A stretch of 64,000 nt of DNA from Phycisphaerales bacterium (GTDB lineage Bacteria > Planctomycetota > Phycisphaerae > Phycisphaerales > JAGLTS01), in contig JAGLTS010000024.1 of NCBI GenBank assembly GCA_023135165.1, positions 62,001-126,000 of the forward strand, given 5' to 3'. Under the pieces are notes generated by a model. It saw only the letters and a list, made by a program, of their open reading frames with translations, did not search any database and was not told where the DNA came from. Shown in pieces: positions 29,352 to 40,362 of the stretch; position 1 is the stretch's first letter, and each line of letters begins with the position of its first letter. The translations under genes were made by a program, and so were the position numbers.

Positions 29352-31547
29352 TCATGCGTCGTGCGCGAGGTTCACCAGGTCGCTGCACAACGCACGCAAC
29401 ATCGTCTTCGGCTCCGATGGCGGAATGTGACGCGAGAGCACCTTCCACGCATCCTCAACCATCGCGTGGGCTTCTTCCCGGCAACGAGCGATCACGCCGG
29501 ATCGGCGGACCAGGTCAATCCCCTCCACACACGCTGATGGATCGGCCCGCAACTCCCGCGTCGAGAGGATCGTTCGCAGGCGAGCACCGTCGGCGCCGCT
29601 GAGCTGCTCCATGGCGCGGACGATCACATATGTCAGCTTGCCCGCTGCGAGATCCTCTCCGATCGGTTTCCTCCGTCTCGGCGAGTCGCTGAAATCGTTC
29701 GCATCGTCGATGATCTGGAACGCGACACCCACACTGCGCGCGTACGAGGCGCAAGCGTGCCGTGTGGCTTCATCCGACCCGGCAATGATGCACGCGAGTT
29801 CGGTCAACCCCTCGACGCCCGCCGCGGTCTTGTACGCATACATCTGAAACAGCTTCGCGGGCGCCGAATCGGTGAGCCAGCGCGACAGGTTCTCGCCGGT
29901 CATGTTGCGCGACCAGTAGATGTCCGTACTTTGGCCGAAGTGGGAGCGCACGAAGAAGCGGACCATGAGTCGATACGTGTCGACGCGCTGGCGTTCCGTG
30001 AGGTGTGGGTGGTTGCCGACGAGCAGGAAGGGCAGGAAGTAGACGGTGTTCGCAGCGTTGATGGCGACATCCATGCCGTAGCGCAGGTGCAGACACGCAT
30101 CGCCGCGCCGAATGGTTGAGTCATCTTCCACATCATCGACGACGAGCGCCGCGGTGTGGCACAGTTCGGGCACGACGCAGAAAAGCTCTTCGTACGGCTC
30201 GATTTTCACGCCGAGCGCTTCGAGCATGAGCAGTCCCAAGATCGGCCGCCAGTGCTTGCCCTTGCGCGACATCAGATCCCACATCGGGGCGGCGATCGTC
30301 TCGGTATACGCAGCGGGTTCGTGGCTCCACGTTGGTTCGCCGAGGTATTCCAACGCCTTGGACTGATCGATCGTCCTGGGCAGGAACGTCTCGATGCGCT
30401 GATCGACGCGGGCGACCATCTGATCGACGTACTGCTGGAAGTCGAGGATGTAGCCGTAGCCGTGCAGTTCCAGGCGAGCGGTCCCGGTGACGGGCCTGCC
30501 TGCGACGGTGCCGTGAACGACGGCGGCACCTTCCCATGTGGCGCGCATGGCGCCGAACGTGGGAAGTTCCTGATCGTCAGCGATCGGCTCGATGATCAGT
30601 TCAGCATCCGCATCAGGGATCGTGAAACGCCAGGCGATTGGGTAGACGATGCGCGTCCTTGGGCTTTCCCAGTGCCGGATCGCTTCCGCGCGGACCTCCC
30701 GAGTGAATCGAGGCGCCCGGTCATCGGCGCAGATCACAGCGAACTGATCGACGGCGCAGCGACGGTCCGCCATGTCGCGGAAGATCGTGATGATCCAGTC
30801 TGAGCCGTCGTCGAGGTTGATGCCGCACCACGTCCAGCCGAGCACCTTGCCGCCGCTGCGCTGTTTCAGCAACCAACCCGATCTGCCCCACTGGTGGTCG
30901 AACCACGCCCTGCCTGTGACGGGGATGCCGTCGACGTCACCCGTGAGTTCGAGCGTCGGGCAGGTGGAGTAGACGACTGGTTCGATCGCAGGCTCGCCCA
31001 GGCCTGTCATGTGCAGTCGCGGGCGCAACGGGTCGAGCGTGAATTGGCATCGCCGCTCGCCGTCCGGTTCCGTGAAGGCGAGGCGGAAGCCCGCGCCGTC
31101 CTGGTGCAGCGAGTGGTCGTCCCACGTGATGGAGAACGGATCGGCAGTGAGCAAAACCGGAGCATCGCTCATCCGGATCGGGCTGGGTGGCCCATACGTC
31201 ACAGCCTCGTGTACATAGGCATCGATGACGTTGCGGTCGAGATCCGATTCGTGAAACCGCTTCCTCCAGTCCAGTAGATGCTGCAGAAGCGTCGGCTCGA
31301 TCAGGCTGCGGAGTGAATGCCTGTCGCTGCCCGCCTCGAGCACGGCGAGCGAGAGCGAAGTGCTCTTCACCATCTGCTCACCGTCGATTGGCGCCAGCGC
31401 ATGGCGGAAGAAACTGCACATGAACCGGCGCTGCGGGAGGCCCGGTCCCTCATAGCATCCTTGCGCAAACCACCACTCGATGCCCGCGTCGGCATGCTCA
31501 GCCTCATGTTCGATCGGCGGAACATCGTGCGCCGCGATGCGAACCAT
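29352..31547 (-). CDS. Fusion of CrtC/AttH-like lipocalin domain with polyprenyl diphosphate synthase
   Basis: About 731 residues in two parts. Residues ~1-385 resemble the CrtC/AttH family (carotenoid 1,2-hydratase-like, two lipocalin-type halves): IEWWFAQGCYEG near the start, the hallmark AWFDHQWGRSGW near 212-223 and a final GYGYILDFQQYV strand. Residues ~400-731 are a trans-polyprenyl diphosphate synthase: GKHWRP (substrate Lys/Arg), first Asp-rich motif DDVEDDS near 470, RRGD, and second Asp-rich motif QIIDDANDF near 612. The synthase half should chain-elongate isoprenyl diphosphates with Mg2+; the CrtC-like half, by analogy, would protonate or hydrate an isoprenoid double bond. No frameshift or internal stop separates them. 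ATG 31547 lacks a good ribosome site; TTG 31634 is an alternative. The gene is divergent from a BtuF-like gene. The product is unknown. Confidence 0.85.
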   Translation of the reverse strand: MVRIAAHDVPPIEHEAEHADAGIEWWFAQGCYEGPGLPQRRFMCSFFRHALAPIDGEQMVKSTSLSLAVLEAGSDRHSLRSLIEPTLLQHLLDWRKRFHESDLDRNVIDAYVHEAVTYGPPSPIRMSDAPVLLTADPFSITWDDHSLHQDGAGFRLAFTEPDGERRCQFTLDPLRPRLHMTGLGEPAIEPVVYSTCPTLELTGDVDGIPVTGRAWFDHQWGRSGWLLKQRSGGKVLGWTWCGINLDDGSDWIITIFRDMADRRCAVDQFAVICADDRAPRFTREVRAEAIRHWESPRTRIVYPIAWRFTIPDADAELIIEPIADDQELPTFGAMRATWEGAAVVHGTVAGRPVTGTARLELHGYGYILDFQQYVDQMVARVDQRIETFLPRTIDQSKALEYLGEPTWSHEPAAYTETIAAPMWDLMSRKGKHWRPILGLLMLEALGVKIEPYEELFCVVPELCHTAALVVDDVEDDSTIRRGDACLHLRYGMDVAINAANTVYFLPFLLVGNHPHLTERQRVDTYRLMVRFFVRSHFGQSTDIYWSRNMTGENLSRWLTDSAPAKLFQMYAYKTAAGVEGLTELACIIAGSDEATRHACASYARSVGVAFQIIDDANDFSDSPRRRKPIGEDLAAGKLTYVIVRAMEQLSGADGARLRTILSTRELRADPSACVEGIDLVRRSGVIARCREEAHAMVEDAWKVLSRHIPPSEPKTMLRALCSDLVNLAHDA

Positions 31548-31826
31548 GTCGTCATGCAGGACGTGCTTGCATTCCCGCTGGTTGGTTCTTGTCTGCAAAG
31601 GCTCTGCTTTCCGAGCGGCGTCACATCGCGTCAAGGCGGTATCGAGTGTGCCAAGGTCGCCGGGCGGGCGGCGTGAAGCTGGGCCGGCCCCGGGGTTTCA
31701 CTGCGTGGCAATCATATGCGGCCGGCGAATTCCCGCAAGCCGGGCCTGGTTCGATCGAGGCACCGCGTGGGCGTGCAACTCAGTCTCCAGCGTCACCCAT
31801 CACCTGTCGGGTACGATGGGGGCATC

Positions 31827-37671: not shown

Positions 37672-40362
37672 ATGACCGGCATCGATCGCATCGCGCGGGC
37701 AGCTCGACGACGCATCATCCTGGATTCACTCCAGCGACGTGCGGGGGGAATGACCATCATCGCGCTGACGGTGAGCTTCGTGCTGGTTGCCCTGGATCGG
37801 CTGCTGGGGCTTGACGCCTCCGCCTGGCTGCTGATCGCACTTCCAGTCGGCGTGGGGTTGGCGATCGCAGCCACCTTGGCGATGCTCGCTCGGCCGACCA
37901 CGATCCAGGCCCTCGCCCGTGTCGATCATGCGCTGCGATTGCACGATGCGCTCGGGTCGGCGGCGGCGGAATCACACACAGCAGACAACCAACGTCACGG
38001 GGCGATGCGCATTGCGTTCCGTGAACTCACACAGCGTCGGGCTGAGAAGCTCGCACCAACCGTCCATGTCGCACAGGCTCTCCCGATCACACTGAGCGGG
38101 CGATGGTCGTACGCGACCGGCATGGCGCTGATCGTCGGCCTCTCCGCGTGGCTGATGCCCTCCCTTGACCTGCTTCATGCGTCAACGCCGAGCGACGGCG
38201 ACTTGGCGCAGGCAGAGGCGCAGGATCGCCAGGCGAGAGAAGAGGTGGCGTCAACGATCCATGACGTGCGCGAGACGCTGGATTCAGCGGAGCTTGCCGC
38301 CGGGGTCGAAGATGAACTGGCGCGCCTCGATAACATGCTTGCGCAGCTCGACGCTGCACGGACGAGCGATGCGCTGCGGACCGAGGCTGCCGGCCGATTC
38401 GATGAGTTGGCCGATCGAATCGACGAGCAGGCGCGCGATGAGCAGCGTGAGCTTGACGCGATCGCTGACGAGTTCCGTGCCCTGCCAAAACCTGAAGATG
38501 GACCTGCCGAGTCGTTTGCCGACGCGCTATCCGGCAACGATTACGAGAATGCGATCGAGTCGCTCGATCAGCTCTCGCGCGATGTGGAGAAGATGGATGA
38601 AGCGCAGCGCCGGCAGGCGGCCGACCAGCTTCGCTCGCTTTCCAAACATCTTCAGGATCGTGCGGAGGCGCCAGAGCCGGGCGAGGCGCAGCCGGGCGGG
38701 GAATCCAGTGAAGCGGCACGCGAGTTGACCGAGCAGGGCCTGTCGGAGCCGGATGCCCGGCAGCTCTCGCAACTCGATGATGCCGAGGAGCTTCGCCGTG
38801 AGTTGGAGGAGCGAGGATTCGACCCCGCCGCAGCCGACCGACTGGCGCGTGAGACGATCGACCGTCGAGAACAGGCGCAGGCGGAGGCGTCGGCCGACGA
38901 CGAGCTACGCGATCTCGCCGACACGCTCGAACGCGCAGCCGACGAGTTGGAGCAGCCCCCGGACGAGCCGCCACCTGCCGACGAGTCGCCGACGCCGCCC
39001 GCCCCACCGAGCGAAGAGGAGCAGCCAGCCGAGCCGCAGGAGCAGCCGACGACCACGCCCGAGCCGGACCGGCCGAGTGACACATCACCGACGGAACCGA
39101 CGGAACCTGCGCCAGGCGCAAGTGAAGGTGCGCCACAACAGACCGAGCAGGCTGAAGACACGGAGGCTGAAGAGCAAGCGCCGCGATCAGACGAGTCCGA
39201 GGCAACCGAGCCGAGCGCGACACCGGACTCGGATGCCGTCCCGCAGCCAACTGATCAGCCCGAGTCCCCTCCCGAAACCGAACCAGGACCGGTTGAGACG
39301 CACGATGAGGATCAGCCGGCCCAAGATGACCCGACCGGCACCCCCACCCCCACACCACCCCCAACCCCCACATCGCCCCCCGCCGGGACCGAACCGACGC
39401 CCTCACCAGACACTGAACCCAGCGAAGGTCAGCCGGCCCCGGACACCGACGAGCCTCCGACGCCGGACTCCACCACGCCGCCACCCGATCCCGGTGAGCA
39501 GCCGCCGTCCCAACCAGACCCCGAGCCCGGCACCGAAGCACCAGACACGCCAGCCGACCCGCCCGATACACCGAGCGAAGAACCCGCGCCGGAGGGTGGC
39601 CCCGACTCAACACCCATGCCCACGCCGGGCGAAAAACCCACCCCGGATGGCGACCCCGACTCAACACCCATGCCCACGCCGGGCGAAAAACCCACCCCGG
39701 ATGGCGACCCCGACTCAACACCCATGCCTGCGCCGAGCGATGCCCCCGACCCGACCGCACCTGATTCCCATCCCCCGCCCCCCGGAACTGACACCGATCC
39801 CACGCCCGGCACCGGCACCGACCCTGGATCTCAACCCGACCGGTGGTCTCGACAGCTCGAAGACCATCTGAAACGCTTGCACGAACGCCGAGCGCGAACC
39901 GAACGCCAAAGGCAAGCGGCTGAGGACATCCGTGAGAAGTCAACCGACCTGCTCGACGGCCTGTCACCCGAAGAACAACAGCAACGGCAGCAATGGTCAA
40001 GGCTGCTGGACCGTTCCGACGAATACGAAACGGAGGCGCTCGACATCCGCCGGCCGGAGCAGGGCGATGAGCTTCGTGTGGTCGATGAGTGGACCAGCCC
40101 GCACAGCGAGCAGGAAGGTGAGGACGCGGTGCGAGGCACGGTCACGGGCAGCCCAGCGGATATCGCGCGTCAGTTCGAGCAGGCCCGTGAGGCGGCAGAG
40201 CGCGCCATCGAGGAGACACCGTTGCCGCCAAGGGCCAGAGAGGCCGTCCGACGCTACTTCCTGCGAGCGATGGAACTTATCGAGGATGACGGGGATTCCG
40301 ACAATGAGGCGGCTGAGTCCGGTGACGCTGAGCCGGATGCATCCGGGACGGACTCGGAGTGA
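37672..40362 (+). CDS. Large membrane protein with Pro/Glu/Thr-rich low-complexity region (DUF4175-like)
   Basis: An 896-residue protein. The N-terminus has two adjacent TM helices (about 27-70) and a third near 145-165, a layout like the DUF4175/TIGR02302 proteins. It is followed by a long acidic coiled-coil-like region (about 175-420). Residues ~425-730 are a Pro/Glu/Thr/Asp-rich, probably disordered stretch that includes an exact 18-residue repeat PDSTPMPTPGEKPTPDGD. The C-terminal ~160 residues return to charged helices. The stop codon lies 2 bp before the next ATG, so it is coupled to the double-vWA protein. The two are probably partners in an envelope complex; this is inference. Confidence 0.82.
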   Translation: MTGIDRIARAARRRIILDSLQRRAGGMTIIALTVSFVLVALDRLLGLDASAWLLIALPVGVGLAIAATLAMLARPTTIQALARVDHALRLHDALGSAAAESHTADNQRHGAMRIAFRELTQRRAEKLAPTVHVAQALPITLSGRWSYATGMALIVGLSAWLMPSLDLLHASTPSDGDLAQAEAQDRQAREEVASTIHDVRETLDSAELAAGVEDELARLDNMLAQLDAARTSDALRTEAAGRFDELADRIDEQARDEQRELDAIADEFRALPKPEDGPAESFADALSGNDYENAIESLDQLSRDVEKMDEAQRRQAADQLRSLSKHLQDRAEAPEPGEAQPGGESSEAARELTEQGLSEPDARQLSQLDDAEELRRELEERGFDPAAADRLARETIDRREQAQAEASADDELRDLADTLERAADELEQPPDEPPPADESPTPPAPPSEEEQPAEPQEQPTTTPEPDRPSDTSPTEPTEPAPGASEGAPQQTEQAEDTEAEEQAPRSDESEATEPSATPDSDAVPQPTDQPESPPETEPGPVETHDEDQPAQDDPTGTPTPTPPPTPTSPPAGTEPTPSPDTEPSEGQPAPDTDEPPTPDSTTPPPDPGEQPPSQPDPEPGTEAPDTPADPPDTPSEEPAPEGGPDSTPMPTPGEKPTPDGDPDSTPMPTPGEKPTPDGDPDSTPMPAPSDAPDPTAPDSHPPPPGTDTDPTPGTGTDPGSQPDRWSRQLEDHLKRLHERRARTERQRQAAEDIREKSTDLLDGLSPEEQQQRQQWSRLLDRSDEYETEALDIRRPEQGDELRVVDEWTSPHSEQEGEDAVRGTVTGSPADIARQFEQAREAAERAIEETPLPPRAREAVRRYFLRAMELIEDDGDSDNEAAESGDAEPDASGTDSE
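39601..39728 (+). repeat. 54-bp tandem repeat inside the low-complexity protein
   Basis: Two exact 54-bp copies (39601-39654 and 39655-39708) and a third that matches for 20 bp. The repeat is in frame and encodes PDSTPMPTPGEKPTPDGD. The identity at DNA level implies recent duplication or active homogenisation. Confidence 0.95.

Follow-up and report, generated by a model that had tools for sequence, protein, structure and literature searches.

Three described enzymes of one lipocalin fold, the carotenoid 1,2-hydratase CrtC (EC 4.2.1.131), kievitone hydratase (KHS, EC 4.2.1.95; PDB 7A0Q/7A0T) and 25-phosphosteroid lyase (25-PSL; PDB 9FZN), all work on an isoprenoid unit at its terminal dimethyl carbon (PMC5805349; PMC11061730; PMC12402844). 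KHS is a proven prenyl hydratase, whose addition of water to the prenyl double bond yields a tertiary alcohol (PMC5805349), 25-PSL is thought to catalyse an elimination at the terminal isoprenoid carbon of the sterol side chain (PMC11061730), and His239, Tyr266, Asp268 and Trp residues of CrtC are essential by mutagenesis (PMC4717167; PMC12402844). AttH proteins, which are related, have been linked to ABC transporters, and a role in lipid transport has been proposed for them (PMC2954199). Here we describe a protein in which a lipocalin module of this kind is joined to a prenyl diphosphate synthase, encoded in a 64,000-nucleotide stretch of a Phycisphaerales contig that we refer to as the window. 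Fungal chimeric prenyltransferase-terpene synthases follow a similar plan, in that a single polypeptide carries a tailoring domain ahead of the prenyl synthase that makes the chain. At the N-terminus these chimeras have a class I terpene cyclase of alpha fold, whereas the fusion has a beta-barrel lipocalin; no Pfam terpene synthase profile matched the fusion protein, which falls outside the chimeric class.

The fusion gene and its distribution

The fusion gene occupies 29352..31547 on the minus strand of the window, running from an ATG at 31547 to a stop codon at 29352 and encoding 731 aa with no internal stop. An alternative in-frame TTG start lies upstream at 31634; we favour the ATG because homologues begin 14-30 aa before the EWW motif. 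An earlier sequence-only reading had placed a single uninterrupted frame at these coordinates, which proved right, and had left the strand unstated; the AWFDHQWG, GKHWRP and two Asp-rich motifs that it listed were all located in the protein. It had also proposed a domain search and structure prediction. CrtC (PF07143; residues 134-221, E 2.3e-8) and Lipocalin_9 (PF17186; residues 236-364, E 1.6e-21) scored above their curated cut-offs, as did polyprenyl_synt (PF00348; residues 416-665, E 1.2e-48, 165.9 bits against a cut-off of 27), so the N-terminus is not an unrelated sequence. The full-length AlphaFold2 (AF2) model is a confident two-part structure with two beta-barrels followed by an all-helical synthase (pLDDT 90.8, pTM 0.90), and the lipocalin half modelled alone gave pLDDT 83.0 and pTM 0.84. 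The N-terminal half is thus a double lipocalin barrel of the AttH/kievitone-hydratase type by Pfam, AF2 and Foldseek (residues 1-364; 30456..31547, minus strand), and the C-terminal half is a trans-prenyl diphosphate synthase by its Pfam core (416-665), its all-alpha AF2 model (370-726) and phylogeny (residues 370-731; 29352..30440, minus strand).

About 20 independent homologous fusions were found in Planctomycetota, Alphaproteobacteria, Desulfobacterota, Bacteroidota, Actinomycetota, Cyanobacteria and methanogenic archaea, and many unrelated genomes hold homologues that match the window protein in domain order and length. Scanning 84,980 species genomes with the synthase half recovered the fusion in Bauldia litoralis, a Rhodobiaceae MAG, Desulfatitalea alkaliphila, two Methanoculleus MAGs and a Bacteroidetes MAG. 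Translated plasmid searches added Streptomyces canus, two Tolypothrix records and a Nitrosomonas protein whose N-terminal half is degenerate, and a phage collection yielded synthase-half matches only. A survey of Planctomycetota, suggested by the sequence-only reading, did find the fusion there, in 3 of ~757 different genomes (overlapping samples of 61, 397 and 392): the window genome itself, G027 from its order and G500, which belongs to a different class. The fusion is therefore rare in this phylum, and its scatter over several phyla and methanogens means that it is not specific to planctomycetes. It was also found in 6 of 40 sampled Methanomicrobiaceae genomes, two of them with broken copies, in 7 of 378 sampled genomes of the order of Bauldia (one with the lipocalin only), and in 6 of 375 from the class to which the Bacteroidetes MAG belongs, where one copy is a 3' piece and another runs up to the end of its contig. 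Broken copies with split frames and 3' remnants were seen in two methanogens (G763 and G789; L153-L156). Because the distribution is patchy and includes broken copies, it suggests an accessory gene that has moved horizontally.

Such rarity among planctomycetes is also what would be expected if the fused frame were an assembly join or a chance read-through without functional meaning. However, the same architecture occurs in the isolates B. litoralis and D. alkaliphila, on complete plasmids of S. canus and Tolypothrix, and on a 1.2-Mb archaeal contig. These independent copies led us to reject an assembly chimera, the error against which the sequence-only reading had cautioned, and purifying selection on both halves speaks against read-through; we give this explanation a vanishingly small chance. 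Among five Methanomicrobiaceae copies, pairs with dS > ~0.19 gave dN/dS of ~0.19-0.29 for the lipocalin half versus ~0.12-0.21 for the synthase half; closer pairs (dS ~0.12 or less) gave lipocalin values of up to 0.54, which are unreliable. Both halves are constrained in methanogens, the synthase half more strongly.

The prenyl synthase half

The synthase half of the window protein contains both Asp-rich metal-binding motifs, DDVED (residues 471-475; 30123..30137, minus strand) and DDAND (residues 614-618; 29694..29708, minus strand). It also has Lys431, Arg434 and His464, the first two of which lie in GKHWRP (residues 430-435; 30243..30260, minus strand) and would bind the IPP diphosphate. 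In an alignment of 21 fusions, the first DDxxD motif is present in all, and the second (DDxx[DN]) in 20, the Nitrosomonas protein having Ser at the last position; Arg434 and His464 are found in 21/21 and Lys431 in 19/21. Foldseek retrieved GGPP and polyprenyl synthases, with TMt of 0.80-0.88 for most of the best matches. The claim of a catalytically complete synthase was borne out at the level of motifs by the PF00348 match, both Asp-rich motifs and the retained Lys and Arg, and with every catalytic motif kept this half is predicted to be an active trans-prenyl diphosphate synthase. A short (C15) product appears disfavoured because small residues, Ala466 and Ala467, precede the first Asp-rich motif.

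Phylogenetic analysis of 52 synthase sequences placed 12 fusions in one group (94/91). Their nearest relatives are archaeal-type synthases of Bathyarchaeota and others, together with a few from planctomycetes and spirochaetes, and they are well separated (100/98) from ordinary bacterial synthases of the same order. The fused synthase halves therefore share a common ancestry, and because they cluster together in the tree, a single origin is the simplest reading. The archaeal-type IdsA/GGPP synthases (PDB 1WY0; NCBIfam NF040698), closest in the tree, have the same fold and all of the catalytic motifs; the fusion differs from them in having GKHWRP where GKRxRP is usual and in its fused lipocalin, and it scores 121 bits with NF040698, below the equivalog cut-off of 468 bits. 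The same synthase group also includes a different fusion, DUF116 followed by polyprenyl synthetase, in bacterium PL23a_bin.76 (L107:5137-7008).

The lipocalin half among its relatives

AF2 and Foldseek both revealed two orthogonal lipocalin barrels in the N-terminal half, which carries the EWW...YxxxP...WxD...GWxW signature that also marks AttH. Sequence matches include AttH (2ICH, E 3e-20) and kievitone hydratase (7A0Q, E 2e-7), and Foldseek matched the same two structures with E 1e-20 and 7e-14, respectively. AttH/DUF2006 (NE1406, PDB 2ICH) is the nearest relative in both sequence and fold, with ~25% identity. Unlike the fusion, it is a stand-alone protein, often encoded next to ABC transporters, and its crystal structure has no assigned activity.

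The sequence-only reading had called this half CrtC/AttH-like. We compared it with six bona fide CrtC proteins; crtD is a neighbour in five cases, and the record from Methylobacterium lacks annotation. PF07143 is detected in both groups, and the acid Asp and the Trp-x-Trp of CrtC are kept: Asp217 (30897-30899), the proposed acid within AWFDHQWG (residues 214-221; 30885..30908, minus strand), aligns with RgCrtC Asp268, and Trp238-x-Trp240 (30828..30836, minus strand) aligns with RgCrtC Trp283/Trp285. The EWW motif (residues 24-26; 31470..31478, minus strand) is the probable counterpart of RgCrtC Trp110, an equivalent of which is probably kept in the fusions. In contrast, two of the four CrtC-essential residues are missing from the fusions; the window protein has no His at the His239-x-Trp241 position (at best Tyr193, one column off) and Trp215 in place of Tyr266. 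In the lipocalin tree, a long branch (3.66 changes per column, 100/100) splits CrtC from the fusions plus AttH. A true CrtC identity was rejected on the two missing residues and on this placement outside the CrtC clade. What holds of the earlier description is the fold, which includes prenyl and carotenoid hydratases; the module itself belongs to the AttH side of the split, and its best functional match is kievitone hydratase. Since the fused lipocalin halves are poorly resolved relative to AttH, this tree fits one or several fusion events.

KHS shares with the window protein the double-barrel fold and the W-aromatic-D-basic-Q-W-G and WTW motifs, and its site of action is the dimethyl-alkene at the end of a prenyl group. 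Unlike the fusion, it is a secreted fungal enzyme for prenylated isoflavonoids without a fused prenyl synthase, and identity over the fold alignment is ~15%. The absence of CrtC His239 and Tyr266 would count against a hydratase-like function of the lipocalin half. The missing Tyr alone is no argument against hydration, because the aligned part of KHS, W-Y-D-R-Q-W-G followed by WTW, also has Trp at the Tyr266 position. Across the 21 aligned fusions, the Asp217 equivalent is present in 18 and Trp238/Trp240 in 19; the Methanoculleus copies keep the Asp and not the subsequent His/Trp. Three fusions, those of G027, Nitrosomonas and S. canus, have lost or changed the acid residue yet keep the synthase, and the lipocalin half would therefore not always be catalytic through this residue.

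Foldseek also matched the fungal lipocalin-like Diels-Alderases Fsa2, CghA and Phm7 (E ~1e-6), raising the idea of a pericyclic or cation-free cyclisation. These matches have 8-11% identity, known enzymes of this type use polyketide polyenes, and we saw no polyketide genes in the contexts read around the fusions. The conserved Asp and Trp cluster would fit acid-cation chemistry better, and a Diels-Alderase-type activity is, in our judgement, highly improbable.

Gene neighbourhoods and proposed function

In the window, the fusion gene stands alone. A divergent ABC import operon (binding protein, FecCD and ATPase) lies upstream, and tRNA-Gly, an ammonium transporter gene and a gyrA-like gene lie downstream; a reading of the neighbours found no adjoining tailoring gene. 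The sequence-only reading had noted a lack of carotenoid genes nearby, and there are indeed none among the adjacent genes. As the window genome also lacks a Lycopene_cyc homologue, a carotenoid role in this organism was rejected. The fusion gene is the only Lipocalin_9 gene of this genome, which has two further prenyl synthase matches and a hopanoid-type set of two tandem squalene/phytoene-synthase-type genes and one strong squalene-hopene-cyclase match; because of these genes, housekeeping chain synthesis and the hopanoid-type route can do without the fusion. Elsewhere in the window, an 896-aa reading frame without a Pfam match was observed at 37672-40362 (+).

Several relatives have more informative surroundings. 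In Bacteroidota G1289 (L180:3471-11783), genes for a GT28-like glycosyltransferase, the fusion, an LMF1-like membrane protein and two P450s follow one another on one strand with gaps of <=9 nt, a compact arrangement resembling a terpenoid cluster. A Lycopene_cyc (PF18916) membrane-protein gene overlaps the fusion in Alphaproteobacteria G887, and such a gene adjoins a separate, unfused lipocalin gene in G850. A plasmid of Tolypothrix sp. PCC 7601 encodes a 1509-aa protein (L124:9655-14184) that combines sulfotransferase, glycosyltransferase 28/UGT, CrtC, Lipocalin_9 and polyprenyl synthetase domains, with DevC-type exporter genes beside it; this protein is a candidate all-in-one enzyme for a sulfated or glycosylated terpenoid. 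The Nitrosomonas fusion is followed by FMO-like monooxygenase and LCM methyltransferase genes, an MMPL exporter gene lies ~40 nt upstream of the fusion in Desulfatitalea, and ABC genes are found near it in S. canus. Finally, G068 (L031/L120), from the same class as the window organism, has an unfused pair in which an AttH-like lipocalin gene overlaps a separate prenyl synthase gene by 4 nt. No single neighbour recurs from one phylum to another among the loci compared, and the classes of neighbour are those of specialised terpenoid metabolism and lipid export. The membrane or signalling lipid suggested by the sequence-only reading finds no support here: the contexts point to specialised metabolites, several of them adjoining export genes.

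All five Methanomicrobiaceae loci that were read carry an RPH-like phosphotransferase gene immediately upstream of the fusion (L035:2157-4811; L038:1942-4668, split into two frames; L157:6564-9380; L158:744-3395; L159:10737-13397). It belongs to the family of PDB 5FBS (E 2e-72), a rifampin phosphotransferase, and its substrate may be a prenol. A kinase in this position, together with a Foldseek match of the lipocalin half to 25-PSL (9FZN, E 4e-5), which is distantly similar in fold and acts at a terminal isoprenoid carbon, would suit a lyase or isomerase that turns a prenyl (di)phosphate into a diene, or shifts its double bond, by eliminating phosphate or diphosphate. The 9FZN match is, however, far weaker than those to AttH or kievitone hydratase, 25-PSL differs in catalysing an elimination, and the kinase neighbour is seen in methanogens only. 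Moreover, the kinase that supplies 25-PSL with its steroid substrate has a size of 40 kDa, is reported to show little similarity to known phosphotransferases and is not described as RPH-like (PMC8449060), in view of which we dropped a parallel between the methanogen gene and steroid 25-kinase. We consider a lyase or isomerase of this kind distinctly improbable.

The main rival view is that the lipocalin half is no catalyst and binds or solubilises instead: it would shield the long hydrophobic chain, hand it to the next enzyme or exporter, or set chain length, leaving prenyl synthesis as the only chemistry. The exporters near the Desulfatitalea, Tolypothrix and S. canus fusions fit such a role, as do the loss or change of the acid residue in three fusions, the higher dN/dS of the lipocalin half and the linkage of AttH to ABC transporters (PMC2954199), seen also in Eleftheria, where AttH comes after an ABC permease. 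That many AttH proteins with the same motif adjoin ABC transporters and have no assigned activity would likewise weigh against a catalytic reading. Nevertheless, most fusions in several phyla retain Asp217 and the Trp cluster, a degree of conservation beyond what simple binding would need, and the relatives of this fold with described activity that we met in the analysis are all enzymes. A purely carrier role therefore seems to us somewhat unlikely.

We propose instead that the fusion is a cytosolic bifunctional terpenoid enzyme that would make an all-trans prenyl chain and then hydrate or acid-cyclise its terminal isoprene unit, a proposal whose chances we regard as evenly balanced. The C-terminal domain would extend an allylic diphosphate with IPP into an all-trans prenyl diphosphate, whose length is probably C20 or slightly more, and the chain would then pass into the N-terminal double barrel. 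There Asp217, amid Trp25/26, Trp238 and Trp240, would protonate the terminal dimethyl-alkene, and the tertiary cation may be captured by water, the course taken in kievitone hydratase and CrtC, or may cyclise through attack by a nearby double bond; different genes in different lineages would then modify the product further. By analogy, action of the lipocalin half on the newly made chain is most likely, because barrel and synthase are joined in one polypeptide and encoded by neighbouring genes in G068. Hydration to a tertiary alcohol would be the best-supported reaction, from the nearest characterised relative, and proton-started cyclisation the alternative that the same residues may allow. 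We infer both activities, the chain length, the order of steps, the hand-over of the substrate and the choice between hydration and cyclisation from these comparisons.

Public records name the fusion 'polyprenyl synthetase family protein', and our search of the openly accessible literature, with subscription papers and InterPro architectures outside its scope, found no paper on a lipocalin-prenyl synthase fusion. Its domains and its design logic, a prenyl synthase fused to a tailoring domain, are known, and their combination is apparently undescribed. As a tentative and broader view, the fusion may represent a new bifunctional terpene-forming enzyme, a lipocalin-fold acid-initiated hydratase/cyclase with its own prenyl synthase, shared horizontally among bacteria and methanogens and opening terpenoid pathways to glycosylated, sulfated, oxidised or exported products. 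Should the synthase product be the substrate of the lipocalin half, this would be an undescribed terpene architecture that couples chain-making to protonation chemistry in a beta-barrel, not in a class I/II alpha fold. Part of the large AttH family would thereby gain a function, and the fusion would serve as a marker for terpenoid gene clusters so far overlooked in planctomycetes, Bacteroidota, alphaproteobacteria, cyanobacteria and methanogens.
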